Of a stretch of 64,000 bases of DNA, positions 1,219 to 63,905 are shown one piece after another. This stretch comes from Tridacna crocea (Eukaryota > Mollusca > Bivalvia > Cardiida > Cardiidae). A program made the position numbers and the translations under genes. The stretch's first letter is position 1, and each line of letters opens with the position of its first letter. Under the pieces are notes generated by a model, which had not been told where the DNA came from, did not search any database, and was given only the letters and a program-made list of their open reading frames with translations. The stretch lies in the NCBI GenBank assembly GCA_943736015.1, contig OX031060.1, forward strand, positions 7,701,501-7,765,500, given 5' to 3'.

Positions 1219-1446
1219 TTAACCCATTACCGCACAATCCCTACTTTTGATGCCCCTGAGAAAGAAGCCTTTTGAAAACACTGTGGGAAAAGGAGAAAAT
1301 GCTGGTAACCAGCATTTTCTCCTTTTCCCACAGTGTTTTCTACCCATTTCAGATCAAATTTCAATTTTTCAGTCACCTTGATTTTGTCGTCTGCAAATGC
1401 TTTCAATTTGAACCAGTCTAAAATTTTGTTGTGTGGTAAGGAGTTA
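1219..1446 (+). mobile_element. TTAA-hairpin MITE, type A (reference copy)
   Basis: Non-autonomous element of about 228 bp. The ends are short inverted repeats of about 17 bp starting TTAACCCATTACC, here with the right TTAA mutated to TTAG. A left arm (ACAATCCCTACTTTTGA, CCCTGAG) leads to a central palindrome at 1274-1340: 33-bp arms identical in inverted orientation around a single A. A right arm follows with the conserved words GTCGTCTGCAAATGC and CAGTCTAAAATTTTG. There is no coding capacity. The TTAA target and CCC-starting ends suggest piggyBac-type mobilisation, which is an inference. In the entries below, + means this arm order. Confidence 0.9.
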
Positions 1447-1500
1447 GATACCATAGATACAAAAGACCACAGCCTTCAGTTGTTTCACCTGTTATAGTAC

Positions 1501-2594
1501 GGTCACAAATCAGTAAATGCCGCCTGCCGGCGTGGTAACTGCCAGTTTTCACTCAAATTCGGCCAGTGGCAGCTCGGTGGCAGGCACAATCGGCAGGCGG
1601 CAGGCGACATTTTAGACACCGCTAGGACACCGCTGAAGTTTTAAGAAAAAGTTAAAATTCTGACTGCCACCGGCTAATTTTTTCCAGTTGTGGCTGTCGT
1701 CAGGGCGCCGGCCGGGCGCATTTCGTGGTCGCGCGGTGGCAATCAAGCGGCAGACAGGCGGCAGCGCGATTTTTACTCGGTCGTCACGGGGTTCAAGGGC
1801 CTTCAATCTTCGGCCGGCGATCGGTAGGAACTAACTGCCACTCTCCAGCATCCGGCCTGCTACCGTTATGCTACCGAAATGCCACCGTGCGATTTCAAAA
1901 TATCTGCCGGCGGCAGGGCGGAGATTGAAAAGCAGATGGAAGGCGGCTGTCGAAGTTGGTAGGTGGCAGGATAGCGATCTGCCGAGTGCAGACTCCCGGG
2001 CCCCTGAATATAAATCCGAGGCTATTCACAATAAGAAATTGTCGTCATGGCGATTCTTACAGCACCAGGGCGACTCAGAGACTTGCATATTGCTGGGTTG
2101 GGCTCTGGTCTGTTGCGCTGCGGTGCTGGCGCTTTGTCTTGCCCCTTGCCTTTAGGGGGCAACTTGTTGGAAGGAAAACTTTATTAAATATTAGCTCTAT
2201 TTATCTTATGGTTGATAATAATGATGAACACTTTGTAGTGATACGAGAGCAATCTAGCTATATATATCCCCCGTAAACCAGCCTGCCGCCGTCAGATTAT
2301 CGGCCGGTGTCAGTTGTATATGGTCAGTGTCCGCCAGGCCGCCGGGCGGTGGCAGGTAGAATCTGACGGCTGCCGGACTGTCGCCTAACTGCCACCGGCC
2401 GACACCCTGATGACATCCCACACCCCTCGAACTTGAGAAACTGCCTGCCGCCGCCCGGAACCCGCCAGGCGGCCTTTTACTGGCAGTTATTTATGACCAC
2501 TCTCACCGATTTGTAAAAAATCGGCCGGCGGCATGTAATTTTAAGAATCCACCGATGTCTAAAAATCGGCAGGTGGCAGTTTCACATTGTGACC
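1501..2594. mobile_element. 1.1-kb GC-rich non-autonomous DNA element
   Basis: Bounded by short inverted ends, GGTCACAAAT at 1501 and ATTGTGACC ending at 2594. The interior is far richer in GC than its surroundings and full of diverged CGGCCGGCGGCAG/CTGCCGCC subrepeats in both orientations. A less GC-rich stretch (about 2000-2280) sits inside. No transposase is visible. The overlapping open frames of 64-106 codons are products of the GC-rich repeats and look non-coding. Target duplication is unclear (ATAGT on both sides at best). Confidence 0.55.
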
Positions 2595-2787
2595 ATAGTG
2601 TTAGACCTGTAGTCCAACAGTACTCATAATAATGGTATTTAGGGGTAAAGTATACTGTATTTCAAAGCCCAACACTTAAAAAATAATGCGCAAAGTTCAA
2701 TTACTGCACTAGGGTGGTTCAGATACTGTAATTCTGATTGCTATAATAGTCAGTATTGATGGACATATAATTATAAGTGCTGAATCC

Positions 2788-2970
2788 TTCAATCCTTTTC
2801 CACACAAGCCTGAGGAGCAAATCTGAAGAAGGAGGCTTTTTTAAACATTGTGAGAAAAGGCATTTTCTCCTTTTCTCACAAAAGTTTTCCATTCTTAAGA
2901 AAAACGATAAACCATGATACTAGTATGAGCATTGGTGAGTCTAAAATTTTGTTGTTTAGGAAAAAGTTAA
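2788..2970 (+). mobile_element. TTAA-hairpin MITE, decayed
   Basis: The left end is eroded (TCAATCCTTTTCC). The hairpin is shortened because part of the loop-proximal stem is lost. The right end, GTTGTTTAGGAAAAAGTTAA, is recognisable. Confidence 0.6.
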
Positions 2971-3007
2971 AGGTTGAAGCAAGATTTAGTTACTTATGCA
3001 GTATGGA

Positions 3008-3234
3008 TTAACCCTTTACCAGACAACAGTGTTTACCGCTTATCTAATTTAACAGCAGTAACTGTTGCAGACAACAAACTGGTCTTTACAATAGAAGAAA
3101 ACAATGTGCAGAAAGGAGAAAATGCTGGTCACCAGCATTTTCTCCTTTTCTCACAATGTTTTCAAAAGCTTTTTTTTTTTTTTCATTTTTAGGTGGGGGG
3201 GGGGCCTCAAAACTCGGAATTGGGTACAGGGTTA
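3008..3234 (-). mobile_element. TTAA-hairpin MITE, type A
   Basis: Intact left TTAA; right end TTAG. The loop variant is GGTGACC. A poly-T tract and a G9 run have expanded in the right arm. Confidence 0.8.
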
Positions 3235-3387
3235 GTTCAAAGTCCACCATTCCAGGGTTGTGGGCGTCCTTGTTGAAATAATTATGTTATGAAAGTACAG
3301 GAAATGCCCACTTCTCCGCCCCAGCTTTTGAACATTTTGTAACAAACTGAGGGTCCATGCCTTTCTGGGCAGACATTGGTAAATAAC

Positions 3388-3600
3388 TCAACCTTTTACA
3401 AAAAAGGACAAAATTTAAACCTGTCGTATAAGTGTAAGCATTTGCAGACAACAAATTGAATATGACTCAAAAACTAAAACTTCTCTTTGAAAGTATCAAA
3501 AAACATCGTGGAAAAGAAGAAAAATGCTGGTGACCAGCATTTTCTCCTTTTCCACGATGTTTTCAGAAGGCTTCTAATCCTCGGTCTAAAGGATAAAACG
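3388..3600 (-). mobile_element. TTAA-hairpin MITE, type A, decayed ends
   Basis: The left end is TCAACC; the right end is lost against the next copy. The stem at about 3498-3564 carries a CATCGTGG/CCACGATG pair in both arms, a co-varying change from the usual CATTGTGG/CCACAATG. Confidence 0.7.
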
Positions 3601-3627
3601 CATTGTTGGGTGAAGGAGAAAATGCTG

Positions 3628-3851
3628 GTTACAGGTAACAATCCCTGGTTTTTACGGGTCTAAAACAGTAGCCTTTAGAAAACAATGTGGGAAAAGGAGA
3701 AAATGCTGGTTACCAGCATTTTCTCCTTTTCCCACAATGTTTTCTACCCTTTCATAGACAGAAATCATCTTTCCAGCAACAGTTGAATTGTTGTCTGCAA
3801 ATGCTTTCAGTTTTGTCTAGTCCAAAAGTTTGTCATTTGGGAAAGGGTCAA
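3628..3851 (+). mobile_element. TTAA-hairpin MITE, type A variant
   Basis: Left terminus missing; right end is TCAA. The hairpin at 3678-3744 has a single mismatch. The left arm is of the 'CCCTGGTTTTTACGGG' variety also seen at 51877. Confidence 0.8.
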
Positions 3852-3951
3852 TTGTCTATAATGCATTTGAACTTTGATAGCCATTTGTGGTATGAAATGC
3901 TAGTATTTGACAGATCATTTTATATCCTGCATTGCATTCCTTAGGATAATA

Positions 3952-4731: not shown

Positions 4732-7700
4732 GTAATTATCATAAAGTTTGATTGTTGATTATTGATTATTAGTTATGTTTGACTGTTCATTCCACACAAT
4801 CCAGAGTTTTTAATGATGCTAAGGGAGAAAATCTTTTGAAAATTTTGTAAATAAAAAAGGAGAAAATGTTGGTAACCAGCATTTTCTCCTTTTCCCACAA
4901 TGTTTCGTACCCTTCTTAACCCATTACCAAACGACAATATTTTAGACTGGTCCAAATTGAAAGCATTTGCAGACAACAAAAAAAAAGCTACAGAAAATTA
5001 GAAATTTGTTTCGTGAAGGGTAGAAAACCTTGTGGGAAGAGGAGAAAATGCTGGTTACCAGCATTTTCTCCTTTTCCCACAATGTTTTCTAAAGGCTTCT
5101 TTCTCAGGGGCATCAAAAGTAGGGATTGTGTGGTAATGGGTTAAAGCAATTAAGTAATTGTGATTGTCAATTGTTCTGTCATTTTAACCCATTACCACTC
5201 AATCCCTACTTTTGACGCCCCTGAGAAAAAAGCCTTTTGAAAACACTGTGGGAAAAGGAGAAAATGCTGGTAACCAGCATTTTCTCCTTTTCCCACGGTG
5301 TTTTCTACCCTTTCCAGAACAAATTTCTATATTTCAGTCACCATTATTTTGTCATCTGCAAATGCTTTCAATTTGGACCAGTCCAAAATTTTCTTGTGTG
5401 GTAATGAGTTAACAAGCTTTCAGTTTGGGCAAGATATAATTTTGCTGTTTTGTAAAGGTTTCTGCAATGAACTGAGTTGCAATAATAAATATCAGCCATG
5501 CTCTTACAAAAGGGGGCTTCATGCATCTCAGTGTTGTATGTGACAGAGCATTCCTTCACATGCTTAGATTCATTAAATCATAGATTCATAAAATCCATTT
5601 TGTCTAACTACCCCCGAATCATGATTGACGTAGACTTTGATAGAAAATTGTGTAAAGCACTGGTCAAAGAGACTCAGAAAGCATGGATAGGTGCACTGGC
5701 TGCTGTGATATATCTGAAAAAATGTTGAAAATGGCAGTAAACACCTTAAAATCAATCAATCTAACTCTTTACCAAGCAATACCAAGTTTATCAACCTTAA
5801 TAATTATTGGGCAAGGAGCCGCCTTAACCCATTACCACACAATCCCTACTTTTGACGCCCATGAGAAAGAAGCCTTTTGAAAACACTGTGGGAAAAGGAG
5901 AAAATGCTGGTAACCAGCATTTTCTCCTTTACCCACAGTGTTTTCTACCCTTCCCAGGACAAATTTCAATTTTTCAGTCACCTTTATTTTGTCGTCTGCA
6001 AATGCTTTTAATTTGGACCGGTCTAAAATTTTCTGGTGTGGTAATGAGTTAACCCTTTTCCACACAGCAAAATTTTAGACCTATGCAAATTTGAATTATT
6101 TGCAGAAGATCATCTCATAGTGAATCAAATGACACAATTCTCCCTTGATAGGGTTGAAAGCTCTGTGGGAAAAGGAGAAGTTGCTGGTTACCAGCAATTT
6201 CTCCTTTTACCACAATGTTTTCAAAAGGCATCGTTCTTAGGGTCATTAAAAGTCGTCATTGTGTAGTAAAGGGTTAAAACATTGTTGGAAGCGGAGAAAA
6301 TGCTGGTATCCAGCAATTTCTTCTATGCCCACAATGTTTTTTACCATATCAAATTTTTCTGTGCCAAATGCTTTCAATTTGGACAAGGCTAAAATTCTGT
6401 CACCTAGAAATGGCTCAACTCTGTACCAAACAACAAAATTTCAGAATGGTCCAGATTGAAAGCATTTGCAGATGACAAAATAAAAGTTACTGAAAATTTT
6501 AATTTAGTTTTGGGAAGACATCGTGGGCAATGGAAAAAAAAATGCTGGTTACCAGCATTTTCTCCTTTTTCCCTCAGTGTTTTCAGAAGGCTTCTTTCTT
6601 AGGGTCGTTAAAAGTCTGGATTGTGTGGAAAAGAGTTAACCTTGTGATCATGTTTAAAACACATTTAACCGCTAAAGAAGTAAAGGGAAAAAAATGAAAT
6701 AAATGATCTATATACCTGATCTATATTACAGAAAATGTCAAGTGAATATATTATTTTGAACTTGAACAGGATTGAAGAATGTTGCTTCATTAACATTTTA
6801 CCTGGGGGCAGACCAGAATTATGGTTTGTTTTGTTTTGAACACATCACTTCTATGAAAAAAAAAATGGACCATTAACCTAAGAAATGTATTTGTTTACCT
6901 AATCACAGTGAATTACAAAAAATACAGAAAAGTACATGTATGTTGTTTGAACTTTAACTCTTTACCAAACAACAAAATTTTAGACTGGTCCAAATTGAAA
7001 GCATTTGCAGATGGCAAAATTCATGTGACTCAAAAACTGAAAAACTTGTTACGGGAGGGTAGAAGAGATTGCTTGAAAAGGAAGAATGCTGGTTACCAGC
7101 ATTTTCTCCTTTTCCCGCAATTTTTTCAAAAAGTTTCTTTTTCAGGGTCATGAAAATTAGGGGTTGTTTGGGGAAGGGTTAACATGATAAAAGAATTTTT
7201 CTCCAGTTGCTTGGGGGCTGCAAAAGGGAAAAGAAAATTTTAATGACATCAGTTTGCAATACTGCATTGTATTGTACTATTGTATAGAAAGTCAATATAC
7301 AGGGTGTTTTATTATTAGCTAACAATTTCAAATGTACCCGAGGCTGTATTTTTTTTTTTACAAAAAAGTACAATGAAATTCATACCATTTGATAAGTCAA
7401 AGATTATAGTTTTATGAGATGTACACTACCTAAGGTTATATTAACCCTTTACTACACAATCCCGACTTTAAACGACCTCGAGAGAGAAGCTTTTTGAAAA
7501 CACTGTGGGAAAAGGAGAAAATGCTGGTAACCAGCATTTTCTCCTTTTCCCACAGTGTTTTCTACCCTTCCCAAACCAGATTTTAATTTTTCAGACACTT
7601 TTATTTTGTCGTCTGCAAATGTTTTCAATTTGGACCAGTCTAGAATTTTCTTGTGTGGTAAAGAGTTAAACAATAAAGGGACAAGCAACTTAAAACAATA

Positions 7701-10700: not shown

Positions 10701-13700
10701 GACCATGGCAGAGGCAAAAGAATACACCTATAACAGGTTGCAGCAGGAACTTGACATTGCTCAATCGGTATGTCAATTTTAACCCTTTCTCAAACAAGCC
10801 CTCGTTTTTACGTGTCTGCAGTACAAGTCTTTAGAAAACACTGTGGGAAAAGGAGAAATTGCTCTTAACGAGCAATTTCTCCTTTTCCCACAGTGTTTTC
10901 TGCCCCTTCAGATAATTTTCTGCCATTGTTATGAAAGTTAGAATTGTCGTCTGCAAACTTTTTCAGTTTGAGAGAGTCTAAATTTTGTCGTTTGGGAAAG
11001 GGTTAACCATTACCTCACAACCTGTACTTTTGACGACCCTGAGAAAGAAGCCTTTAGAAAACATTGTAGGAAAAGGAGAAAATGCTGGTAACCAGCATTT
11101 TCTCCTTTTCCCACTATGTTTTCTACCATTCACAAAACAAATTTCAAATTTTCAGTCACTTTTATTTTGTTGTCTGCAAAGACTTTGGATTTGGACAAAC
11201 CAAATATTTTGTCGTTTGGTAGTACCAATGAGTTAACTCTTCCCAACCACGCTGAAATATAACCTGTTGCTGTTCGTGTGCTATAATTCGTCTGAAATAG
11301 TTTTCCTTTTATTTTTTCCTCATCTGTTCTCACAGAAAAAGTCGAGGTAATGTTGCAGCTGCATCATCATCCTAGTCCGTATTCGGTGTCATCATTGTGC
11401 AAAACTTCGACATTTTATAAAATCTCTGTAATAACTTAACGTAGTGGACCCGTAATAGAAAACAGCTATTTCTATATAATATTATTCTACAAAATTTGCT
11501 AAGATTGAAAATAAGTATTATTGTACTACTTTCGCCGAGGCACTTTTTCCTTTTTGTCCTTCCTAGAATTATCATTTATAAATCTAAAACTACTATATTC
11601 TCATTACAAATGGACATAATAATTACCTCCCTTTTCTGGAAATTAACAAAACTATCGACAAATAATTTAAAGAAAGACATCAAAGGGATTCCTAGTCAGT
11701 TAAAAATGTGCAAAAATATTACATCTGTACAAATCTGTCTTTATCAACTGTCGAGAAATTTTATGCCATGCTGCCCCAGAAGTATTACGAGTCCACTACC
11801 TTAAGATATTTACCTCAATATGGACACATTGTTGACTGTCAAAAACCCATACAACAGGGACAGATAACTATCAAAGTATTTTTAGACATAGTTACGCCCC
11901 TTTTTCAACATGGTGCTCTGGTTTATTTCAGGGATGGACAGTTTTCTAAACATTTTAGAATTTTGAAAAATGAGCAACATCTATTTACTGTGACAGATAA
12001 TTACCCATATTTCCATTATAGCTTTGATGTCTTGTAAGAAAAGACAAGTTTCTTTCTTTCCCTTCGGTTTTGTCTGCTTATAAGGCTGTACATAGCTGAA
12101 GTGTTGCAACCCCCACCCCTTTTAAACACCCCCCCCCCTTTGAAAGTAATTCGTTTGTGTTTTCCGTTTTAATTCTCATGAATGATATCATCTTTTTTCC
12201 AAATGACATGCTTAAATATGGCTATTTAAAACTGAAAGATGACAAGCTCAAGCTGGAGTGTGATACAAAACAAACTAAAGGTCTTTTCCATTAAAAAAAC
12301 AGTATGGGATTTGGAGAAAATGCTGGTTACCAAGTTTCTTCTCCTTTTCCAATAATGTTTTCAAAATGCTTCTTCTTCAAGGTTAGTTGAATCACAGGAT
12401 TGTTTGATAAAGGAATAAAGGACCTTCATGGTCCTGTTGTTTTGATGTATATTAATTCTCCATTGTTTGTGAATCATGTGGAACAGAAAAAATATGTTTT
12501 TCCAAGTAACTTATATTACAGTTATTGTCATAAATTATTAATTGCCATATTTTATTAAGATTAATATTTTGGTTACAAAACTTTGTTATTGTATATTCAT
12601 CCTAGTTATGTTTTATGTGCACCTGACTTGAAACAGGTAACTTTTCAACAAACTTCCCTTCTCTTTATGACCCTGAGGAACAAGGCTTAACTCTTAGCCA
12701 CACAGTCCCGATTTTTAACGCCCTGAGAAATATAGCCTTTGAAAACATTGGTGGGAAAAGGAGAAAATGTTGGTAACCGGCATTTTCTCCTTTTCCCACA
12801 ATGTTTTCTACCCTTTTCAAATCAATTTACAATTTTTGAGTCTCATCTATTTTGTCGTCTGCAAATGCGTTCAATTCGGACAAGTCCAAAATTTTGTGGT
12901 TTGGTAAACGGTTAAAAAACATTGTAGGATAAGGAAAATATGCTTGTTGCTAGCATTTTCTATCATTTTGAAGACAAATCCCAACAGTTGAGCAAATTTC
13001 ATTTGTTTTCTAAAAACACCTTCACTTTTCCAAGACAGAAATTTTATCATCTGGTGAAGAAAACATGAAGTTATTAAATGAAATCAACTTGAAGTTTTCT
13101 TTCATGTACATGTATAAGATTTTGGAACTTTATGAATCATCTATCATAGAATGAAAAAAATGAATCATTTACAAAGCAAAATATATATTAAAAAAATAGA
13201 TAATGATAATGTATTTTCTTTGCCTCAAATTTTTTTCAGGAGCTGAAGTTGAAAGATGAAGAATGTGCCAAACTACTCAAAGTTCGAGATCAGATTGGAG
13301 AGGAATTAGAAGAATTGACTGCAAGTCTCTTTGAGGTTTGGATTTTTTTATTTTCTTGCTGTTTCTGTTGGTTATTTTTAGCCGATGTCAGTTTGAAAGT
13401 AGCATAGTTTTACATGTGATTTTTTAGCTCCGCTGGCCGAAGACCAGCGGGCTTATGTCATGGCCAGGTGTCGGTTGTGCGTCCGTCTGTGCATTAACCC
13501 TTTACTCCATAGATACTCATTTCTATGCATTGCTTGTAGGAGTCTTTGGAAAACATTGTGGCAAAAGGTGAAATTGCTCGTCACGAGCAATTTCACCTTT
13601 TGCCACAATGTTTTCTATGCTATCAAAAGGTGTCATATACACATAAGAAACAGCTTCATCCTTACTGTTATTTACGGACAATTAGAGATACCATAGAAAT

Positions 13701-16700
13701 GTCTTATGGGGTGAAGGGTTAACTTTTATTTCAAATATCTTTTTCTGTAAAAACTACCCATCCAAATTTGATGAAACTTAACAGAAATCATCCTGCTGTG
13801 GTCCTCTTTAGATTTTTTCTAAATAATTTGATTCCTTCAAAAATTCTGAACAACTTCTGAATTTTGTAATTGTCCCAAAGTTATGTAACTTTCAAAGTTA
13901 GAAAAAATTCTGAGAATAAGAATGAGAAAGTTCTCAATAATGAATATGGATTGATGGATATTTTTATGAATACGGACCCTATTGTCCAAGTACCTGAAAA
14001 GTTCATTGGCATCTGGTGCCAAAAACAGAATATCATTAATTCATTACCAAAGGACAAAATTTTAGGTTTGTCCAAATCGAAAGAATTTGCAGACGACAAA
14101 ATAAAAGTAACTGAAAATTTGAAATTCATTTTGTGAAGGGTAGAAAACATTGTGGGAAAAGGAGAAAATGCTGGTTACCAGCATTTTCTCCTTTTCCCAC
14201 AATGTTTTCTAAAGTCTTCTTTTTAGGGTCATCGAAAGTAGGGATTGTGTGGTAATGGGTTTAATACAAGTGTTTGTCAGGCTGCCTGTAAAATGTCAGT
14301 GGATATCTCTGAATTTTGTTTCTTCTATTTGTTTTTAGGAAGCAAACAAAATGGTGCAAGATGCAAATTTAAAGAGGATACACTCTGAGAAGTTGTTAGA
14401 AGATGCTAATAATCAGGTAACGGTTTGTTCCATCTCTTTCTTTTATCTGTTTTGCTCAATGTATATATTTTTACTTGTTTGTATAATTGAATAAACTTTC
14501 TTTCTATGCATCTGTCTATTTACCTATGATTTTGTGTAGCAGTTCCGTGTAATTCTATATTTTCTGAGTATTATGAGGATTTTTTTTATACCCCAGCAAA
14601 ACGAATGTTTTTGGATGGGGGGGGGGGGGTATACTGGAATCAGCCTGTCTGTCCATGTGTCTGTCTGTCCGTGTGTCTGTCTGTGTACAAAATTCTTGTA
14701 ATTTTGTGTTACAAACTCTTCCTACAGTTTCCCTTCAATTGTATTGAAACTTTGCACATCTACTGATCATATATTGAAGATTTGCAACATGCAATTTTCA
14801 AGTGTCAGCTCTTCCTGGTTGAGGAATTATCTTCCGTTGAACTTGACACTTATTTCTGTCAAGGCGCTGGCTGGGGTATTAAGTCACATTGACAGTTCTA
14901 GTTGATACTTGACCTGAAAATAAAAACTTTGTCCATTTTGAATATATTTGCTGACTGCAAGCTAAATGTTGCTCAAAAAAACACTTTGTCTTTCAGAAGT
15001 AAGAAAATATGGAGAAAAGACAGTTTACACTGGCATTTTTTTCTCTTTTACACAATGAATTGAAAAGCATGGCAAAGGTTTGTGATCTGATTTTTTTTTT
15101 GTCAGATTGAAGTTCTGAAGGCAGAGGTGGTAGCGTTGAAGCAGCTGGTACTGACTTCGACCCCAAGTTCTCCGAACAAGCATCTACATCCACAAATAGC
15201 AAATGGCGAGGTTAAAGACAAAGAAAAGGACAAGAAAAAGGAGAAAGGATCCAAACCATTTTGGAAAACTCATCGAAGGTATGTAAAATAAATTATATGT
15301 ATCCTTAACCCCTTACCACGAAATCCCAAATTTTATGACTCTGAACAACAAGATTTTTGAAAACATTGCGGGGGAAAAGAGAAAATGCTGTTTACCAGCA
15401 TTTTCTTAACTCATTACCACACAACAAAATTTTAGACTAGTCCAAATTGAAAGCATTTGCAGACGACAAAATAAAAGTGACTGAAAATTTGAATTTTGTA
15501 ATGTGAAGGGTTGAAAACATTGTGGGAAAAGGAGAAAATGCTGGTTACCAGCATTTTCTCCTTTTCCTACAATGTTTTCTAAAGGCTTCTTTCACAGGGG
15601 CATCAAAAGCAGGGATTGTGTGGTAATGGGTTAATTTTCCACAATCTTCTTTGTATCCTATCAAAGATGGAAATCTTCACATGGGCCTACTTTTATTTTG
15701 TTGTCTGCAAGTGCTATCAATTGGGTCAAATTCAGAATTTTGTTTATTTGAAAAGTTTTCTAAGCCTTCTTCTTCAGGGTCTATAGAACTTTGAATTGCA
15801 TTATAAAGGTCTAACTCTTTACCAAACTACAAAATTCTAGACTTGTTCAAACTGAAAACATTACTGACAACAAGAAATGTTACTCAAAAATCAAAATTTG
15901 TTTTGAATAGGATAGAAAAAAGAAATTGTGAGAAAGGAGAAAATATTAGTAACCTCCTTTTCCCACTGTGTTTTCAAAAACTTCCTTTCTAATTGTCTTT
16001 AAAACTCAGGATTGTGGTATAGAGGGTCAAATGGAGTAAATTTTATCTCTTCAAAAAACAACAAAAAATTAGAGTTACTGAAACTTAACCCTTTATCACA
16101 CAGCAAAATTTTTTGCCTACCCAAACTTAAAGCATTTTCAGACGGCAACTTTGCTGTGCCTCAAATGAAGCAAGTTTTCTTTGATAAGCTGGAAAACTTC
16201 ATGAGAAATGGAGAAAATGCTGGTTACCAGCATTTTCTCCTTTCCCACAATGTTTTCCAAAGGCCTCTATCTCAGGATCATCAAAAGTTGTCATTGTGTG
16301 GTAAAAAGTTGAAGCATTTGTGGATGCACAAATCAAATGAAAAGATAGAATATGACTTTTGATAGGTTGGAAAACATTGTGGGTAAAGGAAAAAAAAGGC
16401 CATCTCTGTCAGGAAAATTAAAACTGTGGATTGTGCGGGAAAGCGGTAATACTGTGTAAATAAAGTGGTTGTCTGCCATAAGCATAGTGGGTATAAAATC
16501 AACCGTTTTGTTGCTCTACTTGTTGTGTTATATATATTATATGGCTGAATTTACACTTTACCAAACAATACAATGTAAACTTGTCTAATTGGAAAGCATT
16601 TCCGGATGACATGATGAATAATACTCAAAAATTGAAACTTGTGTTTGAAGGGATGGAAAACATTGTGGGTGACGGTGGCTAAGAGCATCCTCTCCTTTTC

Positions 16701-19700
16701 CAGCAATGTTTCCAAAAGTCTTCATATTCAGGGTTGTTAAAATCATGTATTGTGTTGTTAACCCTTTACCACAAAATAATGACTTTGACCACACTGAGGT
16801 AGAAGCCTTTTGAAAATATTGTGGGAAAAGGAGAAAATGCTGTTAACCAGCATTTTCTCTCTTTCCCAAAATGTTTTCTACCCTTCCCGTAGCAAATTTT
16901 GACTCTTCAGTCTGATTGATTTTTGTCGTCTGTAAATGCTTTCAATTTGGACCAATCTGTAAATTTGTCGGTTGGTGCAGAATTAAAGAGTGAAAACAGA
17001 TTTTTTAGGTAACATTATGTGGTAAAAACTCTCTGAAAAAGTTTTCTGTGGAATTCTATACGAACAATTTGTAGATTAAAAGTATTACCAAAGTACTTAA
17101 TGATATGTATCAATAAGCTTGGAAGATTTATCTCCCTTCCTGCCCCTGAAGAATTTATATCGGGCAATAGAATAGTTGTCTCTTTTACTTGTAACCCTTG
17201 GACTTCTTAGCCCAACTCACTGACATTTTGTGTACAGTGTAGATCACGATGATTTTGCACAGATAATGCAGATTGATCTCGGATCTTGGTCTGATAAGAA
17301 GACATTTGAAATAGGACTGTTGGTTTTTACTTTTGGTTTGAAAGTTTGATTTGTTTTATTAAACAGGATAAAGGTTGAATTTTTTCATAGGACCAAATTT
17401 TAGACATGTCTGAATTGAATACCTTTCCATATAACAAAATGTACATGACTTAAAAACTTAAATTGGTCTGTTATAAGGGGAGAAAACTCTGTGGAAAAAG
17501 GAGAAAATGCTGGACACTAGCATTTTCTCCTTTTTAGCTCACCTGAGCACAACGTGCTCAAGGGGAGCTTTTAGGATCACCCGGTGTCCGTCGTGCGTCG
17601 TCCGTCGTGCGTCGTCAACAAACATCAACTCCTCCTAAACCCCTGGGCGGATTTGGACCAAACTTGGCAGGAATGTTCCTTGGGAAGTCCTCTTTAAAAA
17701 TTGTTCACAGAATTTGATTCCATCAAAAACTCTGGTTGCCATGGCAACAAAATGGAATTTTTTAGCAAATTCTTTAAAAATCTTCTCCTCTGAAACCGCT
17801 GGTCGGATTTTGAAATAATTTCACAGATATGTTCCTTGGGTGACCCTTTTCAAAAATTGTTCGTGAAATTTTGATTCGTCAAAAATTGTGGCTCTGGTGA
17901 ATGGGGGCTTCTTGCACTATACAGAAATGAAGAAATTCTTTAAAAATCTTCTCCTCTGAAACCGCTGGTCTGATTTTGAAATGATTTCACAGATATGTTC
18001 CTTGGGTGACCCTTTTCAAAATTTGTTCGTGAAATTTTGATCCATCAAAAAATGTGGCTCTGGTGAATGGGGGCTTCTTGCACTATACAGAAATGAAGGA
18101 ATTCTTAAAAAATCTTCTTCTCTGAAACAGCTTGTTAGATTTTGAAATAATTTCACAGAGTTGTTCCTTGGGTTACCCTTTTCAAAAATTGTTGCGAAAT
18201 TTTGATTGGTCAAGAAACATGGCTCTGGTGAATGGGGGCTACTTGCACTATACAGAAATGAAGAAATTCTTGAAAATTCTTCTTCTCTGAAATGGCTGGA
18301 CAGATTTTAAAATAATTTCACAGAGATGTTCCTTGGGTGACCTTTTTCTAAAAATGTTCGCGAAATTTTGATTGGCCAAGAAACATAGCTCTAGTGAATG
18401 GGGGCTACTTGCACTATATGGAATGAAGAAATTCTTGAAAATTCTTCTTCTCTGAAACCCGTGGTCAGATTTTAAAATAATCTGACAGAGACGTTCTTTG
18501 GGTGACCCTTTCTAAAAGCTGTACATATAATTTTGATCCGTCAAGAAATATGGCTCTTGTGAATGGGGGCTACTTGCACTATACGGACATGATGAAATTC
18601 TTTAAAATTCTCTCTTCTCTGAAACCCCTGGTCAGATTTTGAAATAATTTCAGAGAGATGTTCCTTGGGTGACCCTTTTCAAAACTTGTTTGTAAATTTT
18701 GATCCATCAAGAAACATGGCTCTCGTGGATGGGGGCTACTTGCTCTTATACAGAAATGAAGAATTCTTAAAAATTCTTCTTTTTGAAACTGATGGTCAGA
18801 TTTCGAAATGACTTTTACAGGTGACCTTTTGAAAATTGCTTGGCAAAATTATAAATTTGGTTCCAATGTTTCAGTACTTCAAAAAAAAAAATAGACTATG
18901 GTCATCTCAAAAATTCAGGTGAGCGATCCAGGGCCATCTTGGCCCTCTTGTTCTATATTTGTGTTTAAGTCTTTTTCTATAGGGTTAGTAACACATGTTA
19001 GGACTATTTGTTAATGCATGAGGCTCTATTTAGGGGAATTAAGTCACGTTCTTTAACTTTTTACTACACAGTCCCGACTTTTGACGACCCTGAGAAAGAA
19101 AGCCTTTGAAAACACAGTGGGAAAAGAAGCAAATGCTGATAACCAGCATTTCCTCCTTTACCCACAATGTTCTCTATCCTGCTGGAAACAAATTCAATTT
19201 TTGACTTATGCTTAATTTTTTGTCTGCAAGTGCTTTTAATTTGGATGAGTCTAAAATTTTATTGTTTGGGAAGGAGTTAAAAACTCTAGATATTGTTATC
19301 ATCTTTCTTCTCTAGATCAACAAGTCATCATCAGTTTACACAAGAGGACAGAAATCAGGCTGAAGCCGAACACAGAGCGATAACCGATAAATGCAAGGAG
19401 GTCAGTATACTAATGCCCTTTAACCCTTTCCCAAACGACAAAGTTTGGACTCTTCAAAACTGAAAGAGATTGCAGACGACAATTTTAGATTATGAGAAAA
19501 TGGCAGAAAGTTCTCAAAAAGGGTAGAAGACACTGTGGGAAAAGGAGAAATTGGTCGTTACGAGCAATTTCTCCTTTTCCCACAGTGTTTTCAAAAGCCT
19601 CTTAACTGCAGACACGTAAAAACCAGGGCTTGTTTGGGAAAGGGTTAACTCGTTTCCAAACAATTCCAAGTTTTGACGCCTTTGAAGAAAAAGCCTTTTG

Positions 19701-22700
19701 AATACATTGTGGGAAAAGGAGAAAATACAAGCTTTTTCAGCTTGTAACAAAGACATTTTTAGTATCTCCTAGTGTTTGTGCACCACAGGTTGGACTGTAA
19801 TTGCGATTGATAAGTTGGATGGGGCTAATATGATGGAAAATGTCTTTTGAAGATTGAATATTCTAGGAAAAAGGAGAAATGTTCTTTGCCAGCATTTGTT
19901 TTTTATCTGCCACACATTCTAGGCCTTCTTCATCAGGGCTGGAAAAAGATGGGTTTGTTTGGCAAAGGTTGAATCTTTGTAAGTTTTAAACCATTACCAC
20001 ACAATCCCTACTTTTGACAACCCTGAGAAAGAAGCCTTTAGAAAACAAATTTGAAATTTTCAGTCACTTTCAATTTGTTGTTTGAGGGATTGTGTGGTAA
20101 TGACTTAAACTGTCATGGATTAGAACCCTTACGTAAAAATAATGAGTTTTAATGACCCTTAGAAAGAAGCCTTTGAAAAACATTGTGAGAAAATGCTGGA
20201 AACCAGCATTTTCTCCTTTTCCCAAAATGTTTTCTATCCATTCTAAACACAAATTTCAAACTTTGAGGCACATTTATTTTAATGTCTGCAAATGCTTTCA
20301 ATTTGAACAAGTCTAAAATTTTGTTGCTTGGTGTTATGTTGATCATGCCGCCTGCCCTTTTATCATCATGTGACATTTACTAGTATTTGGTTCAAAACCC
20401 CCCTAGGACAAAACCCCCCTAGGACAAAACCCCCCTGGACAAAACACCCCTGGACAAAACACCCCTGGACAAAACACCCATACCCTTAACTGAAAAGTGG
20501 ACAAAACCCCCATGGTTTTAAATGATTCTTTTTGTACGATCATTTTAAACATGAATAAAATTTACTGCTTTAAATACTTGTGGGGGTTGTAAAAAATAAT
20601 GTTTTTGTATAAGTTAAATTGATTTGATATGAATTTTTTTTCTTTAAATTGTGCCTTATGATAAAAAATGTGTTTTTTTCTTAAAAGTTTGCTTTATGAC
20701 CAAAAATGTGTTTTTTTTCTTCTTAATACATTCATAATAAATTCATAATAAATTATAAATGCAATCATACAATGGAAAAAATCATTTATATATTAATCAA
20801 AGGATTTTTTTTTTCTTATTTGGTGCTTTTATATGTTCAAATCTACAACTAAATATTAGTGAATATGACAGGTGTAAACATGCAAATCAGGTGATTAATC
20901 CCTTCTCAACACCTGTCTTGCCCAAGTCTGCATAGGTGTTGATATATCAATAGAAATTATCAACAAACTTGAGGTACAAATTAAAATAAGATAATATCTA
21001 AATCATTTTTTGCCTTTCATGTTTGATCTTTTTCCTTAAATCAAACAGACTTGTTTTGAATACTTTAAAACTGTTTGCAAATTATGTGTTTTCTCAAATT
21101 TACATGCTTTTTATATATGATGGGGGTTTTGTCCTAGGGGGGTTTTATCCTAGGGGGGTTTTGTCCTAGGGGGGTTTTGTCCTACACTCGTCCATCGAAG
21201 TGTCTTTCTATAACTTTGAACCCTTTACTCCATTGATACTTGTTTCTAGGCATTGCTTGTAGGAGCCTTTGGAAAACACTGTAGCAAAAGGTGAAATTGC
21301 TCATGACGAGCAATTTCACCTTTTGTCACAATGTTTTCTATACTTTCAAAAGGTGTCATATACACATAAGAAACGGCTTCATCCTTGCTGTTATTTATGG
21401 TCAATTAGAGATACCATAGAAATGCCTTATGGGGTAAAGGGTTAAATTTCATTTTCCCAAAATGTCGTAGACCATCATATTTTCATGTTGTAACCTATTT
21501 CCAAAGTATTGCAAATTCATATAACCAAGAGTACAATGTATATAGTAGGAAATTAAATATTGCATGGCTGTCTCTTTTTCTTCAAGATTGATCCTGTATG
21601 TTTTGAAGAATTCCGAAATTGGAGACAGCAGCCCGATTTATCCAGGAACAGTCCTTTTATAGCCAGAATAGCAGCAGAAGATATATGTACATGTCTAAAT
21701 TTTGCCAACACACAGGTGAGTAAAACATACATCTAGACAATCCAAACACTACAATTCTGTCTTGATCTTGACTTCTTTTGAAATAAGTTTATAAGTATTT
21801 TATCTATGTCAGATGAGGAAGTTGCAAACTGATCGCTATGTAAGACATTATCAAGAAACAAATGTAGCTCTTGATTAGGGGATTTGGACAAAAAACACTG
21901 TGTGAAAAGGAGATAATACTGGTTACTCATATTTTCCATGTTTCCCTTAACCCTTTACCCCATAAGGCATTTCTATGGGATCTATAATGGATGCTAAGTA
22001 ACAGCCAAGGATGAAGCCGTTTCTCATGTGTATATGACACCTTTTGATAGTGTAGAAAACACTGTGGCAAAAGGTTAAATTGCTCGTCATGAGCAATTTC
22101 ACCTTTTGCCTCAATGTTTTCCAAAGGCTCCTACAAGCAATGTGTAGAAATGAGTATCTATGGAGTTAATGTTTCCAAAAGCCTCTATTGAAAAGAGAGG
22201 ATCTCCCAGAAAGGTTTACCTGTTAGTGACAAACACTGCAGTGGACAAGTTATTTAGTATTCCATATCCTTTAGTTATTTTGAAGTCATTTATAATGTGA
22301 AAAGACTTAACCCTTCCCAGATAAGCCCTGGTTTTTATGGCTCCGAGGCTGAAGGTGTTTGAAAATAACGAGCATTTTCTTCTTTTTCCTCAGTGTTTTC
22401 TATCCACAGAGATAAAAATGCCACCATTTTAGCTTCTCTAAATTTGTCGTCTCCAAATTCTTTCACTTTCAGCAGACCAAAATTACCTCATCTGGTAAGG
22501 ACTAATTTTTTTCTGTTTTTCTGTTTGAGCAGCTAGCAGAGAAAGTTTTGACGTGTGTAGAAAAGAATACTCTAGCCATAGAACCTATACCAGGAGAAAA
22601 TAATCTCCCAAGGTAAGCTTGTGTTAAAGTGGATTCAAATTTGTTGACTTCAGTTCATGATTTAAGATCATTTTTCTGTTAGAGTAGGTTGCAGAGAAAG

Positions 22701-27607: not shown

Positions 27608-27837
27608 TTAACCTTGTACTCCACAGATACTCATTTCTATGCATTGCTTGTAGGAGCCTTTTGGAAATCATTGTGGCAAAAGGTGAAATTGCTCGTGACG
27701 AGCAATTTTACCTTTTGTCACAATATTTTCTATGCTATCAAAAGGTGTCATATAGACATAAGAAACTGTTTCATCCTTGCTGTTATTTAGGGTCAGTTAG
27801 AGATACCATAGAAATGCCTTATGGGGTAAAGGATTAA
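27608..27837 (+). mobile_element. TTAA-hairpin MITE, type C
   Basis: TTAA at both ends; centre GCTCGTGACGAGC. Confidence 0.88.
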
Positions 27838-29298: not shown

Positions 29299-29350
29299 AC
29301 CCATCAATATGATTTATGAATGATGGCTAATTATGCGATGCAGAAATCTT

Positions 29351-29805
29351 TTAACCCTTTACCACACAACAAAATTTTAGACCTGTGTATAGGGAAAGCA
29401 CTAAAAGACAGTACGGTAAATGTAGCTTAAATAAATAGATTTCTCTAAAACAAGATAAAAAGCATTGTAGGTATTGGGGGAAAAATGCTGATTACCAGCA
29501 TTTTCTCCTTTTCTCAAAGTTTTTTTTCAAATGCTCTTTACCTAATGTTTGTTAACTCATTACCAAACATCAATAATTTTGGCATGTCCAAATCAAAAGC
29601 ATTTGGAGACGACAAAATAAAAGTGACTGAAAATTTGAAGTTTGTTTTGTGACGGGTAGAAAACATTGTGGGAAAAGGAGAAAATGCTGGTTACCAGCAT
29701 TTTCTCCTTTTCCCACAATGTTTTCTAAAGGCTTCTTTCTCAGGGGTGTCAAAAGTAGGGATTGTGTTGTAATGGGTTAAACAGGGATTGTGTTGAAAAG
29801 GGTCA
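29351..29805 (-). mobile_element. TTAA-hairpin MITE split by a nested copy
   Basis: 29351-29551 carries the left arm and hairpin; 29781-29805 is the displaced right end (ACAGGGATTGTGTTGAAAAG). A full copy lies between at TTAA. Confidence 0.75.
29552..29780 (-). mobile_element. TTAA-hairpin MITE, type A, nested
   Basis: TTAA at both ends; hairpin 29659-29725 is perfect. Confidence 0.92.
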
Positions 29806-44300: not shown

Positions 44301-44318
44301 TCATCTTCACGAAGCTCT

Positions 44319-44553
44319 TTAACAAGCTTTCCTGAGTTGTAGCGAAATCGAAGAAAGAGGCTTTTGAAAACATTGTTGGAAAAGGAGAAAATGCTGGTAA
44401 CCAGCATTTTCTCCTTTTCCAACAATGTTTTCTATCCCCATTTTTAAACGAAATCCAGTCCTGCAAGCCACATTGAATTTGTCGTCTGCAAATGCTTTCA
44501 ATTTGGACAAGGCTAAAATCTTGCCGTCTGCATGGTAAAGAAGTAAAGGTTAA
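44319..44553 (+). mobile_element. TTAA-hairpin MITE, type A with co-varied stem
   Basis: TTAA at both ends. Hairpin 44366-44432 is perfect, but both arms carry GTTGG/CCAAC where most copies have GTGGG/CCCAC. Confidence 0.9.
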
Positions 44554-49619: not shown

Positions 49620-50273
49620 TCATTCCCTTATAGCCTTACCATCAACATAGAGAGTATCATATACGATCCAGCTTCTACTACCTTGTTTTCTTGCATTTTT
49701 CATTTTGGCTACAAGTTTTTTCCTTTTATTAACTACTTCCGGTGGAAACTGTTCGAAAACTTTGTAAGGGGTTCCTTCGAGCTCCTTCCACTGTCTTCGA
49801 ACCGTTTCCCTGTCTTTAAAATAAGTGAACTTGGCAATGATGGATCTATTTCTACCCTGTTTTCGTTCGCTTGGTGAACGATGTACACGCTCAAATTTTA
49901 CAGTTTTAGCAAATTCATCTGATAATTTCATAACATTTGCAAGGTGGTTTCTTAATTTACTTTCAGTCTGATCTGGACCTTCTATGGTACTCTCTTCTGT
50001 AATACCAACAAAAACAAGATTATTCCATATGAATCCCATAATGCATCTCAGAGATGTATGCTTTCCCCCATTTCCCCCCCCCCCCTCCCCCATTTTTACC
50101 AGACCGTGGCTTATAAAATGTTTTATGCATTTATCATAGATCTTCTGCAATTCAACGGCGGTCATTGCATCAAAATTCATACGAGGAATTGATTGATAGA
50201 ATTCCCATAGAGGCAAAGACAATATTAAGAATATTTCTGTTTTATGCTTGTCTTTTTCACCCGGCCAGGCTAT
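49620..50273 (-). CDS. LINE ORF1 (L1 ORF1p-like, 5' incomplete)
   Basis: Open from the TAG at 50274-50276 to TGA 49620-49622; the first in-frame ATG encodes the M of MNFDAM. NNLVFVGITEE and RVHRSPSERK..SIIAKFTYFKDRE resemble the RRM of L1-type ORF1 proteins, and YKVFEQFPPEVVNKRKKL the C-terminal domain. A GEGGGGNGG stretch comes from a C10 tract. It would bind element RNA. Confidence 0.8.
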   Translation of the reverse strand: MAWPGEKDKHKTEIFLILSLPLWEFYQSIPRMNFDAMTAVELQKIYDKCIKHFISHGLVKMGEGGGGNGGKHTSLRCIMGFIWNNLVFVGITEESTIEGPDQTESKLRNHLANVMKLSDEFAKTVKFERVHRSPSERKQGRNRSIIAKFTYFKDRETVRRQWKELEGTPYKVFEQFPPEVVNKRKKLVAKMKNARKQGSRSWIVYDTLYVDGKAIRE

Positions 50274-51500: not shown

Positions 51501-51665
51501 TAGAATATTTGTTTTTTTAGTAGAAAGATTGAAATTTATTTCATTTCGTGAACATCATCCGTAATATTTTCACTCGTGGCTGCGCCACTCGTGAAAATAT
51601 TACCGATGGTGTTCACTCGACGAAATAAATTTCGATCTTTCACCGAAAAAAACAAATATCCTCTA
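51501..51665. repeat. 165-bp near-palindrome
   Basis: TAGAATATTTGTTTTTTTAG returns inverted as AAAAAACAAATATCCTCTA. The centre CACTCGTGGCTGCGCCACTCG is self-complementary. Arms of about 75 bp, imperfect. Confidence 0.78.
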
Positions 51666-54187: not shown

Positions 54188-54420
54188 CGGACATTTGCGT
54201 AAAGTCTCGTCTCTGATCAGAGTGTGCAGTCCGCGCAGACTGATCCGAAACGACTCTTTCCATTTTTATGTATTTTTTCTGTTTTGCACAAGTCTACTGT
54301 AGCACAAAATCTAATGTAGTCGGATAGTGCCGTCTTGGATTAGCCTGCGCGGACTGCGCAGGCTGATCCGAGACGACACTTTACGCAAATGTTTGGATAC
54401 CCTTTATCGCGTGTTGCAAG
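54188..54420. repeat. Foldback with two GCGCAG hairpins
   Basis: GGACATTTGCGTAAAGTCTCG at one end is inverted as CGACACTTTACGCAAATG at the other. Each arm contains its own small hairpin (GTCCGCGCAGACTG; GCCTGCGCGGACTGCGCAGGC). Confidence 0.7.
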
Positions 54421-58944: not shown

Positions 58945-58958
58945 TAAGAAAGGGTATA

Positions 58959-59286: not shown

Positions 59287-59515
59287 TTAACTCATTACCA
59301 AACGACAACATTTTAGGCTTGTCCAAATCGAAGGCATTTGCAGACGACAAAATGAAAGTGACTGAAAATTTGAAATTTGTTTTGTGAAGGGTAGAAAACA
59401 TTGTGGGAAAAGGAGAAAATGCTGGTTACCAGCATTTTCTCCTTTTCCCACAATGTTTTCTGAAGGCTTCTTTCTCAGGGGCGTCAAAAGTAGGGATTGT
59501 GTGGTAATGGGTTAA
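59287..59515 (-). mobile_element. TTAA-hairpin MITE, type A
   Basis: TTAA at both ends; hairpin 59394-59460 perfect. One of the best-preserved copies. Confidence 0.93.
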
Positions 59516-60686: not shown

Positions 60687-60886
60687 TTAATGCATTTGCG
60701 AAAAGTATCGAACCAGGTCAGCCTGCGCAGTCCGCGCAGGTTGACCTGAAGCGAAACTTTTCGCTATTGGTCCATTTTCTGTGTGTGTCAAAGGATCAGT
60801 CTACCTCATGATTTAGTCAGTTGTTCGACAAAGGGTATGTGTAATGCTGTGATGACTCGCTTGGTTTCATACATCACGGAGTTGCC
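60687..60886 (+). repeat. 'GCCATGCTCT' repeat copy with GCGCAG hairpin
   Basis: GGTCAGCCTGCGCAG / GCGCAGGTTGACC form a hairpin at 60716-60747. It abuts the preceding repeat and is cut by the next MITE. Confidence 0.62.
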
Positions 60887-62382: not shown

Positions 62383-62485
62383 CGTATTACTTTAAAACGC
62401 TAAAATTTTGGAATTGTCCCACATGCAATGCACTTGCAGACGACAAATCAAATGCGGCTCAAATAGTGGGATATTTCTTTGACAA
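62379..62485 (-). mobile_element. TTAA-hairpin MITE, left arm only
   Basis: Left end TTAACGTATTAC, arm CACTTGCAGACGACAAATC. Stops near where the next copy begins. Confidence 0.65.
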
Positions 62486-62495
62486 GGGCATTTCT

Positions 62496-62725
62496 TTTAC
62501 CCTTTACCAAACGACAAATTTGTAGACTGATCCAAATTGAAAGCATTTGAAGACAACAAAATAAATGTGACTGAAAAGCTAAAATTTGCTATGGGAAGGA
62601 CTGAAAACATTGAGGTAAAAAAGAGAAAATGCTGGTTACCAGCATTTTCTCCTTTCTCCACAATGTTTTCAAAAGGCCTCTTCCTCAGGGTCCTCAAAAG
62701 TCGTCATTGTGTGGTAAAGGGTTAC
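62496..62725 (-). mobile_element. TTAA-hairpin MITE, type A
   Basis: Left end TTTACCC (one base of TTAA lost), right TTAC; several left-stem mismatches. Confidence 0.85.
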
Positions 62726-62734
62726 TGTTGTGGT

Positions 62735-62815
62735 TATACTGGCATGTTCTCCATTTTCAACAAAGTTTTCAAAAGCCTTCTGCACCGTTAGGACTCGAGA
62801 TTTTTGCGGGCAAAA
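62735..62815 (-). mobile_element. TTAA-hairpin MITE, right-half fragment
   Basis: CTGGCATGTTCTCCATTTTC and TTTTCAAAAGCCTTCTGC. It may be the displaced other half of the copy at 62379. Confidence 0.5.
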
Positions 62816-63047
62816 ACGATAAAAACTAAAAGTCTCACGACTTAAAAAAAAAAGTATAACTAACATGATACGAATATGATATTAATTTCATACCATGAAC
62901 TGATAATCTTGAGTTCAGTAAGATTTGATTCTTTGACAGACTGGTTGAGAAACGATGAAACTTTTGTAGATAGCTTGCGCTTACATAGCTAGAAATTTAG
63001 TAAGACAGTGTAGAATTGATTGATTGATTAATCGATTGACTGACTGC

Positions 63048-63170
63048 CTAACTGATTGATTTAACAGTGTTTTACGTCGCTTTCAACATTATGAATGCCA
63101 TATCACGTCGAAAGCATTCTTTACGCGTTTGTACACTTGGTTTTGCCAGTACTAGGCCGGGACTCTGACG
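63048..63170 (+). repeat. 'GTGTTTTACGTCGCT' interspersed repeat
   Basis: CAGTGTTTTACGTCGCTTTC, GCCATATCACGTCGAAAGC, GTTTTGCCAGTACTAGGC. A GATTGATTGATT run precedes it. Confidence 0.55.
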
Positions 63171-63180
63171 TTGTCATTGT

Positions 63181-63620
63181 AATGGTGTAGGCTCAGCAGT
63201 AATGGTGTAGGGTCAGCAGTAAAGGTATAGGCTCAGCAGTAATGGTGTAGGGTCAGCAGTAATGGTGTAGGCTCAGCAGTAAATGTGTAGGTTCAGCAGT
63301 AATGGTGTAGGTTCAGCAGTAAATGTGTAGGCTCAGCAGTAATGGTGTAGGCTCAGCAGTAATGGTGTAGGCTCAGCAGTAAAGGTGTAGGCTCAGCAGT
63401 AATGGTGTAGGCTCAGCAGTAATGGTGTAGGCTCAGCAGTAAAAGTGTAGGCTAAGCAGTAATGGTGTAGGCTCAGCAGTAAATGTGTAGGCTCAGCAGT
63501 AATGGTGTAGGCTCAGCAGAAATGGTGTAGGCTCAGCAGTAATGGTGTAGGCTCAGCAGTAAAGGTGTAGGGTCAGCAGTAATGGTGTAGGCTCAGCAGT
63601 AATGTTGTAGGCCCAGCATT
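63181..63620 (+). repeat. 20-bp minisatellite, 22 units
   Basis: Twenty-two consecutive units of exactly 20 bp, consensus AATGGTGTAGGCTCAGCAGT, with no insertion or deletion. Variant units (AAAGG, AAATG, AAAAG starts) fall at units 3, 6, 8, 11, 14, 16 and 20. Confidence 0.97.
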
Positions 63621-63704
63621 GCCATGAACAGTGCTTTAGGAATTTGTAGAAAAATGAGAAAAAAAAAACCCAATCTATTGCATGCAGAGGTAGTTTGTTA
63701 TAAT

Positions 63705-63905
63705 ACCGGTATATTACTAATACCTGGTTTGAAAGACAAATTATGTATGGTTAAAAAACATGTATTAGTATTTTTCTTTGGAAGGATGAAAAATATTATG
63801 GGAAAAAAATGCTGGTAACCAGCATTTTCTTTTTTTTCCAAAATGTTTTCTAAAGTCTTTTTCATCAGGGTCGTTACAGGATGGGATTGTTTGGTGAAGG
63901 GTTAA
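63705..63905 (-). mobile_element. TTAA-hairpin MITE, left end eroded
   Basis: Stem GGGAAAAAAATGC / GCATTTTCTTTTTTTTCC; right end GTTTGGTGAAGGGTTAA. Confidence 0.8.

Follow-up and report, generated by a model that had tools for sequence, protein, structure and literature searches.

The window considered here, a 64,000-nucleotide stretch of the Tridacna crocea genome (contig OX031060.1, positions 7,701,501 to 7,765,500; C5:7701501-7765500 in our contig numbering), is crowded with copies of a 229-bp miniature inverted-repeat transposable element (MITE) built around a 67-bp palindrome. On balance, we think it probable that this MITE has been moved into TTAA sites by a transposase encoded at some other place in the genome and that the palindrome is the cis-acting part on which selection has acted, most likely as a duplex dyad read by a protein dimer. 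What is new is the behaviour of the palindrome, which has been kept in sequence, place and symmetry while the arms on either side of it have become almost wholly different. Its two halves have evolved in step, a sign that the spread of the element may depend in part on the palindrome itself.

Conservation and symmetry of the palindrome

The element was delimited with a profile built from 71 full copies and then run over the window. The consensus of family A measures 229 bp with both TTAA sequences included and consists of a left arm of 51 bp, the palindrome (67 bp, positions 56-122) and a right arm of 103 bp; TTAA pairs matched to the profile have a modal length of 229 bp (31 pairs, with 8 each at 228 and 230 bp). 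Short, non-coding, bounded by inverted ends and a target duplication, and present in many copies of uniform length, the element answers to the description of a MITE. When 162 aligned full copies are measured against the consensus, divergence is 7.1% and 7.4% in the two arms of the palindrome, compared with 21.6% and 20.8% in the left and right arms of the element and 13.9% and 16.2% in its end repeats. A preliminary description, made from the letters of the window, had called the palindrome the best-conserved part, and this contrast (about 7% versus 21-22%) survives when copies are selected by a single arm: those chosen by the right arm alone diverge by 7.9% in the palindrome and 17.4% in the left arm, and those chosen by the left arm alone by 6.6% in the palindrome and 19.3% in the right arm. 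Selection of copies by one arm thus rules out ascertainment bias as the cause of the conservation. An effect of composition or CpG is ruled out as well, since for the same base classes change amounts to 3-9% at palindrome positions outside the centre and the ten subfamily columns, versus 17-28% in the arms.

So nearly loopless a palindrome had been expected to be unstable, and no unusual loss was seen. Among 159 copies chosen by the left arm, 6 have lost the palindrome and kept the right arm, and 7 have lost the right arm and kept the palindrome; among 159 chosen by the right arm, 13 are without a recognisable palindrome (7 of these have a left arm) and 11 have the palindrome with no recognisable left arm. 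In these one-arm selections the palindrome does not appear as a deletion hotspot. Free inversion is disfavoured because the centre base keeps one orientation, being A in 133 of the 159 copies with a letter there and T in 14. Taken as a whole, the conservation of the palindrome looks functional.

Families A and C differ most where the palindrome is not. Family C, of which nine copies were aligned, is also 229 bp long with its palindrome at 56-122, and its ungapped identity to family A is 47% in the left arm, 39% in the right arm and 85% in the palindrome; the left and right end repeats are 63% and 68% identical, and so the core is better conserved across families than the ends, as in the coral elements discussed below. 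In gapped alignment the left arms score clearly above shuffled sequence (32 versus a best of 24), whereas kinship of the right arms is barely detectable, their score of 41 comparing with a best of 40 among 300 shuffles. Families B and E retain the length of 229 bp, and a single further copy, in the sampled stretch L021, is 230 bp long, with a right arm 27-38% and a palindrome 90-94% identical to those of the other families. Subfamily clustering, in which clusters of fewer than five copies were dropped and 72 of the 162 copies were used at the tighter threshold, gave four consensuses. Variable sites among them number 48 of 116 in the arms, 8 of 38 in the ends and 6 of 66 in the palindrome, where they make up three matched pairs. 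When the grouping is relaxed to take in family C, the counts rise to 75 of 116, 18 of 38 and 11 of 66, and the variable palindrome sites are then five matched pairs plus one unmatched site. The family C consensus also has imperfect short palindromes at both tips (about 16-34 and near the right end), reading CATAGA..TTTCTATG on the left and CATAAGGCATTTCTATG inward from the right, that recall the subterminal palindromes of piggyBac.

Matched change is likewise seen in individual copies. At pairs 63/115, 69/109, 76/102, 81/97 and 86/92, the 162 copies hold 18, 10, 9, 19 and 20 matched changes, where 5.0, 1.5, 0.7, 2.9 and 2.8 are expected; the excess is partly by choice, because these five subfamily pairs were picked for common matched changes (six or more). 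Over all 33 pairs there are 92 matched changes, compared with 5-12 when partners are slid by 1-4 columns. In the window, 51 of 58 palindromes (seven were left out for indels or many mismatches, that at 10243 without a stated reason) contain 36 both-side cells, versus 8.3 in shuffled and 3-15 in slid controls. Counts of exact cores over the whole genome provide an independent test for two of the five pairs, 81/97 and 86/92. Symmetric cores number 191,599 for type A and 10,018 for type B, and A/B hybrids number 10 (3 forward, 7 reverse) against the roughly 19,000 to be expected if the arms were independent (2 x 191,599 x 10,018 / 201,617).

Resident copies, by comparison, decay mostly one arm at a time after insertion. 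Outside the five subfamily pairs, the 162 copies show 398 one-sided changes, 16 matched two-sided changes and 16 unmatched ones, the 32 two-sided changes comparing with 18.7 expected from the per-copy load; in otherwise intact cores throughout the genome, G83A is found on one side 6,194 times (3,116 + 3,078) and on both sides 156 times. Given such decay, the near-absence of hybrids must come from the amplifying lineages, and we infer that symmetry is imposed when elements amplify.

Target site, ends and source of transposase

The MITE duplicates TTAA upon insertion. Of the 162 full copies, 98 have TTAA at both ends and enough flank for the two sides to be joined at one TTAA, and in 11 of the 98 the joined flanks restore an older copy as a single profile match across that TTAA, which is the target-site duplication of the piggyBac superfamily. 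The ends, TTAACCC(T/A)TTAC..GTAA(A/T)G(G/A)GTTAA, agree loosely with the piggyBac pattern of CC[C/T]T and inverted repeats of 12-19 bp: strict CCCT ends are found in family C and in most subfamily consensuses, and the commonest A subfamily has CCCA on the left and CTCA or CTCT on the right. The Kolobok superfamily has 5'-RR..YY-3' ends beside TTAA (PMC9587614), a pattern that the CC..GG ends of the MITE do not follow. The TTAA-ended design of the preliminary description needs one correction: the copy at 1219 is without an intact 3' TTAA.

The genome contains piggyBac-type transposases of its own. The profile PF13843 (DDE_Tnp_1_7) matches it 118 times, 26 of the matches being stop-free over at least 345 of the 349 profile positions, and we inspected 1.1-1.5 kb on each side of 29 of these loci. 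Both ends are visible at 7 of the 29, in four TTAACCC styles (TTAACCCTTTATATAC, TTAACCCTTTCAGYGC, TTAACCCTWGTCATGC and TTAACCCATKTATGCC), and at several loci no end was found; the CCC start of all these piggyBac ends is partly by construction, because the search patterns required TTAA followed by C or T and, in one search, only TTAACCC. MITE-like ends occur in the 29 flanks only within MITE copies or fragments lying there. The preliminary description had also pictured an autonomous relative, and neither an autonomous element with matching ends nor one with a different target site was found at the 29 loci. Its link to piggyBac, drawn from TTAA and the CCC end, is now the stronger for the empty sites and for the CCC-type ends on the genome's own piggyBac elements, and classification of the MITE as a non-autonomous piggyBac-type element is well supported. 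The transposase would be supplied from elsewhere in the genome. One candidate for a composite autonomous element was rejected: a 492-aa piggyBac-like frame near MITEs on three chromosomes sits in a larger repeated unit with the MITEs nested at identical places. In that unit the piggyBac-like gene (frames of 492 and 462 aa) is accompanied by three nested MITEs, always at the same places (L047/L048, L059/L060 and L061/L062, on C15, C5 and C18).

Possible roles of the palindrome

We picture the 229-bp MITE as having spread by cut-and-paste into TTAA through a transposase encoded elsewhere in the genome. The palindrome, set a constant 51 bp from one TTAA end and 103 bp from the other, would be the cis-acting part selected in amplifying lineages, as comparison of the families suggests; the arms would be free to drift while the palindrome keeps its sequence and symmetry. 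The changes that came to distinguish whole subfamilies are paired ones, pair 68/110 of family C being the sole departure. Once inserted, copies decay mostly by one arm at a time, and symmetry would be enforced at mobilisation or filtered by it. The two halves may be read by a protein dimer, for which the first candidate, by analogy, is the cysteine-rich C-terminal domain (CRD) of a piggyBac-type transposase. The grounds for favouring a two-fold symmetric protein that recognises the duplex are indirect: T88 and A90, which flank the centre, are conserved (changed in 3.8% and 4.4% of copies, compared with 16.4% for the centre), one-sided changes show no preference for G-T (96, versus 127 A-C and 175 others), and the sequence is kept between families whose arms are scrambled. 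In piggyBac and piggyBat, a palindrome is bound by two CRDs of the transposase dimer (PMC11707139), and in T. crocea Cys/His-rich segments occur in 10 of 11 C-terminal transposase frames (the eleventh gave no frame). Six C-termini were tested for the zinc finger PF13842; three gave E-values of 4.9e-5 to 1.2e-3 (one above the curated cut-off), a fourth 0.014 and two no match. The CRD is a candidate binder of the 67-bp palindrome and only that, because the longer halves and inner position seen here differ from those of piggyBac and piggyBat.

Several observations weigh against this account. The palindromes that CRDs are known to bind are small, at 19 bp in piggyBac and 14 bp for one in piggyBat, and lie close to the tips, whereas the halves in the MITE are 33 bp long and lie 51 and 103 bp inside. 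An autonomous element with the ends of the MITE was not seen at the 29 of 118 transposase loci inspected, the search covering PF13843-type transposases only. A protein that binds a hairpin could likewise demand sequence. The family C consensus has one unmatched pair, 68/110, and within family C the regions are nearly equal in conservation (0.93, 0.95 and 0.94). Divergence within subfamilies is also lower in the palindrome (3.8% versus 9.2%), which purely neutral decay after insertion does not give unless many copies are sources. One-sided changes occur at the five subfamily pairs in 25, 22, 9, 4 and 12 copies, respectively. In the window, 9 pairs show any both-side change, fewer than the 10 of one slid control (at -1), and further pair types do not exceed the slid control (30 and 30); the excess lies in the cells and in the covariation score. 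Finally, the 156 symmetric G83A doubles are about threefold the number, near 50, given by simple independence, and some copying between arms may occur. This excess could come from unequal ages or inheritance; attributed wholly to arm-to-arm copying, it amounts to about 2% of the one-sided changes (at most ~106 versus 6,194). Occasional copying from one arm to the other may be a source of symmetric variants for selection to retain.

The preliminary description suggested that the hairpin is used. Functional conservation does emerge from the data; the hairpin is not its best reading, given the conserved T88 and A90, the lack of a G-T preference and the retention of the sequence itself. Use of a hairpin is nevertheless the main rival to recognition of the duplex: the palindrome might extrude as a hairpin or cruciform and serve in replication, strand switching or gap repair, with each round adding copies and making the arms perfect again. 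Hairpin-based amplification has reportedly been proposed for fish MITEs (the Angel elements), and both the almost absolute coupling of the A and B arms and the surplus of symmetric doubles at position 83 are in keeping with it. We judge it unlikely, however, since symmetry is confined to the central 67 bp between asymmetric arms, the pair T88/A90 is conserved although it could not pair in a hairpin across one base, the centre base is not freely flipped, the sequence is kept beyond mere pairing, and loss of the palindrome is no commoner than loss of the right arm. Somewhat less likely again is upkeep by mutation without function, in which template switching or gene conversion matches the arms of resident copies. 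A mechanism of this kind has been described for RNA-gene hairpins (PMC8794818), and the excess of G83A doubles would be its trace; yet outside the five pairs changes are overwhelmingly one-sided, matched ones being no commoner than unmatched ones, and copying between arms would make changes symmetric rather than slower, while the palindrome diverges only a third as much as the arms.

That transcripts of the MITE form a 33-bp stem which, under selection, gives small RNAs or masks the element from host silencing strikes us as improbable. The stem is a plausible double-stranded RNA substrate, and MITE-derived microRNAs have been reported in wheat (PMC8862332), but one-sided G-T changes are not preferred over A-C, the unpairable T88/A90 is conserved, there is no Rfam match within the window, and the literature matches listed for the letters of the stem include none on small RNAs by title or abstract start. 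Least likely is that the palindrome is an old nested palindromic insertion without a role. In most copies TA comes after it, and TT or TA stands in front, as a nested element with a TA target might show; such a passenger should diverge like the arms, whereas the palindrome is the slowest part and keeps its position in families with hardly alignable arms.

Beyond recognition of a duplex dyad by a dimer, we raise tentatively, as a bolder and rather doubtful proposal, that the mobilising machinery selects the palindrome above all, in preference to the terminal repeat, as a 67-bp dyad or fold-back handle that is possibly re-perfected in each round of amplification. If this were so, the rest of the element could turn over wholly and still remain mobile, and the handle would represent a type of cis-determinant new to TTAA transposons and explain why a single MITE came to fill about a fifth of a genome. 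The coupling of the arms (10 hybrids versus ~19,000) makes a direct bench test simple. Moreover, with hundreds of thousands of natural copies, the rate at which palindrome symmetry is lost, the copying from arm to arm and the positions that a mobile element must keep all become countable.

Copies in the window, genomic abundance and known systems

According to the profile, the window contains 103 copies or fragments, of which 57 are near full length; they extend over 1219..63905 and cover 30.1%, in line with the earlier figures of about 100 copies and about 30%. Reversed and Markov-shuffled sequence gave no profile matches. Long near-palindromes number 69 in the window, 0 in a Markov shuffle and 73 in the reversed window, the last being expected because reversal preserves self-complementarity; chance origin of the repeats is ruled out by these controls. 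Among palindrome-bearing TTAA pairs unmatched by the profile, all carry the palindrome of this MITE when judged by eye, and no other 229-bp family with an unrelated palindrome was seen. Seven palindromes had been named as perfect, and each proves to be 33-1-33 with no mismatched pair; they are the only such cases among the long near-palindromes listed for the window, and an inverted-repeat search agrees for both of those checked (1274-1340 and 14143-14209).

Five of the seven lie in full-length family A copies. The copy at 1219..1446 (plus strand) belongs to the subfamily with T63C and A115G, contains the unstranded palindrome at 1274..1340 (33-bp arms and one central nucleotide), and has at least 39 further places in the genome that match its first 182 bp, wholly or almost so, at 96-97% identity (40 candidates scored). 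The others are at 7441..7669 (plus; palindrome 7496-7562), 14036..14261 (minus; 14143-14209), 59287..59515 (minus; 59394-59460) and 29552..29780 (minus; 29659-29725), the last being inside an older copy whose joined flanks form one profile match over a single TTAA. A sixth, at 44315..44541 (plus; 44366-44432), has a private symmetric change, G67T with C111A. The seventh, at 13494..13722 (plus; 13549-13615), is a family C copy in which four pairs are changed on both sides, the arms are unlike those of A, and the layout is 55-67-107 with TTAA counted within the arms. Further family C copies are found at 21219..21445 (plus; palindrome 21272-21338), 21947..22171 (minus; 22055-22121) and 27608..27837 (plus; 27664-27730). 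A family B copy at 19420..19648 (minus; 19526-19592) is changed on both sides at pairs 63/115, 81/97 and 86/92 and has two more mismatched pairs. Full-length copies at 15406..15634 (minus) and 12687..12915 (plus), each nested in an older copy, supply empty-site evidence for TTAA. Other long near-palindromes, at 29234-29302, 33643-33712, 41472-41540, 51548-51616, 54320-54386 and 60698-60764, are unrelated in sequence and are possibly other fold-back repeats.

The assembly comprises 1,048,827,098 bases in 31 contigs and is a eukaryotic chromosome set, since contigs C1-C18 (40-77 Mb each) make up 1,048.4 Mb. In a sample of 20 stretches of 10 kb at round coordinates on the 18 chromosomes (200 kb in total), the profile finds 217 copies covering 19.5%, with 0 to 53% per stretch; by bootstrap, the 95% limits are 13.6-26.0% for coverage and 0.79-1.51 million for genome-wide copy number. 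The exact 31-base core GGAGAAAATGCTGGTNACCAGCATTTTCTCC has 191,599 matches genome-wide, and the same pattern read backwards has none. The samples are representative, because the genome count leads one to expect 36.5 exact cores in them and 37 are present. The window is about 2.4 times denser than the genome average, since it holds 28 cores against 11.7 predicted from the genome mean. Scaling the sample gives 1.12 million copies, or 0.94 million when the denser window is pooled in. Expansion confined to this locus, which the preliminary description had named as a refutation of its reading, is ruled out by the samples and the whole-genome core count. A 25-base core had no match in a viral contig collection, which may omit records close to this genome. 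In copy number, with a total near 1.1 million, the MITE would rank beside human Alu. Its share of about 20% of the sampled sequence bears on published repeat tables for T. crocea, one of which assigns 22.48% to rolling-circle elements, 16.01% to SINEs and 14.19% to DNA elements (PMC11700175, Table 2).

Some sampled stretches hold unusual arrangements. At about 551-8631 of L019 (C9:18000001-18010000), six units were seen of a repeat with a 1,602-bp period, each with the same MITE palindrome; at 1512-1754 of L009, three MITE palindromes crowd into about 250 bp, a picture that multiplication of the core inside one element would give; and at 6917 and 7491 of L027 and 796-839 of L057, degenerate or differently spelled palindromes resemble the outer arm of the MITE's palindrome and possibly represent older families. 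Apart from the MITE, the window contains LINE-type remnants on the minus strand at 46191-48548 and 49017-50222, namely a 785-aa frame that matches the reverse transcriptase domain PF00078 (E 3.9e-38), with two shorter frames lying upstream of it. To the eye, about 1530-2010 is G+C-rich relative to its surroundings, and the first 4 kb have the highest G+C of the 4-kb steps. Elsewhere in the assembly, C31:26516-27850, in a 29,009-base contig, encodes COX1 with an in-frame TGA read through by the invertebrate mitochondrial code, which makes this contig a large mitochondrial genome.

Among the best literature matches listed, none describes a palindrome-cored MITE by title or abstract start, which does not show the design to be unpublished. 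Several known systems share features with it. KolobokP elements, of bivalves and other animals, are DNA transposons particularly abundant in bivalves and belong to a superfamily known for TTAA; unlike the MITE, they carry long direct repeats at their termini and lack a strong preference for any target (PMC9587614). The T2-MITE/Kolobok elements of Xenopus are similarly predominant and long-lived TTAA MITEs, with RR..YY ends (AGGRR in T2) in place of CCC..GGG (PMC6004289). The ends of piggyBac and piggyBat resemble those of the MITE in their TTAA target and, in piggyBac, in the asymmetric placing of palindromic sites; their palindromes are short, near the tips and partly repeated, unlike the one internal palindrome of 67 bp (PMC11707139). 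The nearest described case that we found is CMITE, a group of piggyBac-related MITEs from Acropora corals (PMC2872659). CMITE differs from this MITE in its length of about 100 bp, in its estimated 1,600 copies in A. millepora, and in having one family tied to an autonomous element, AmiPB1; the main text of that report contains neither words in palindrom- nor hairpin, stem or secondary structure, and symmetry is not reported there (PMC2872659). Like the MITE of T. crocea, CMITE duplicates TTAA, has ends that start with CCC, and comprises several families with different ends and one core, its internal region (75 bp) being better conserved between families than the terminal repeats, and its authors suggest that this core matters for transposition (PMC2872659).

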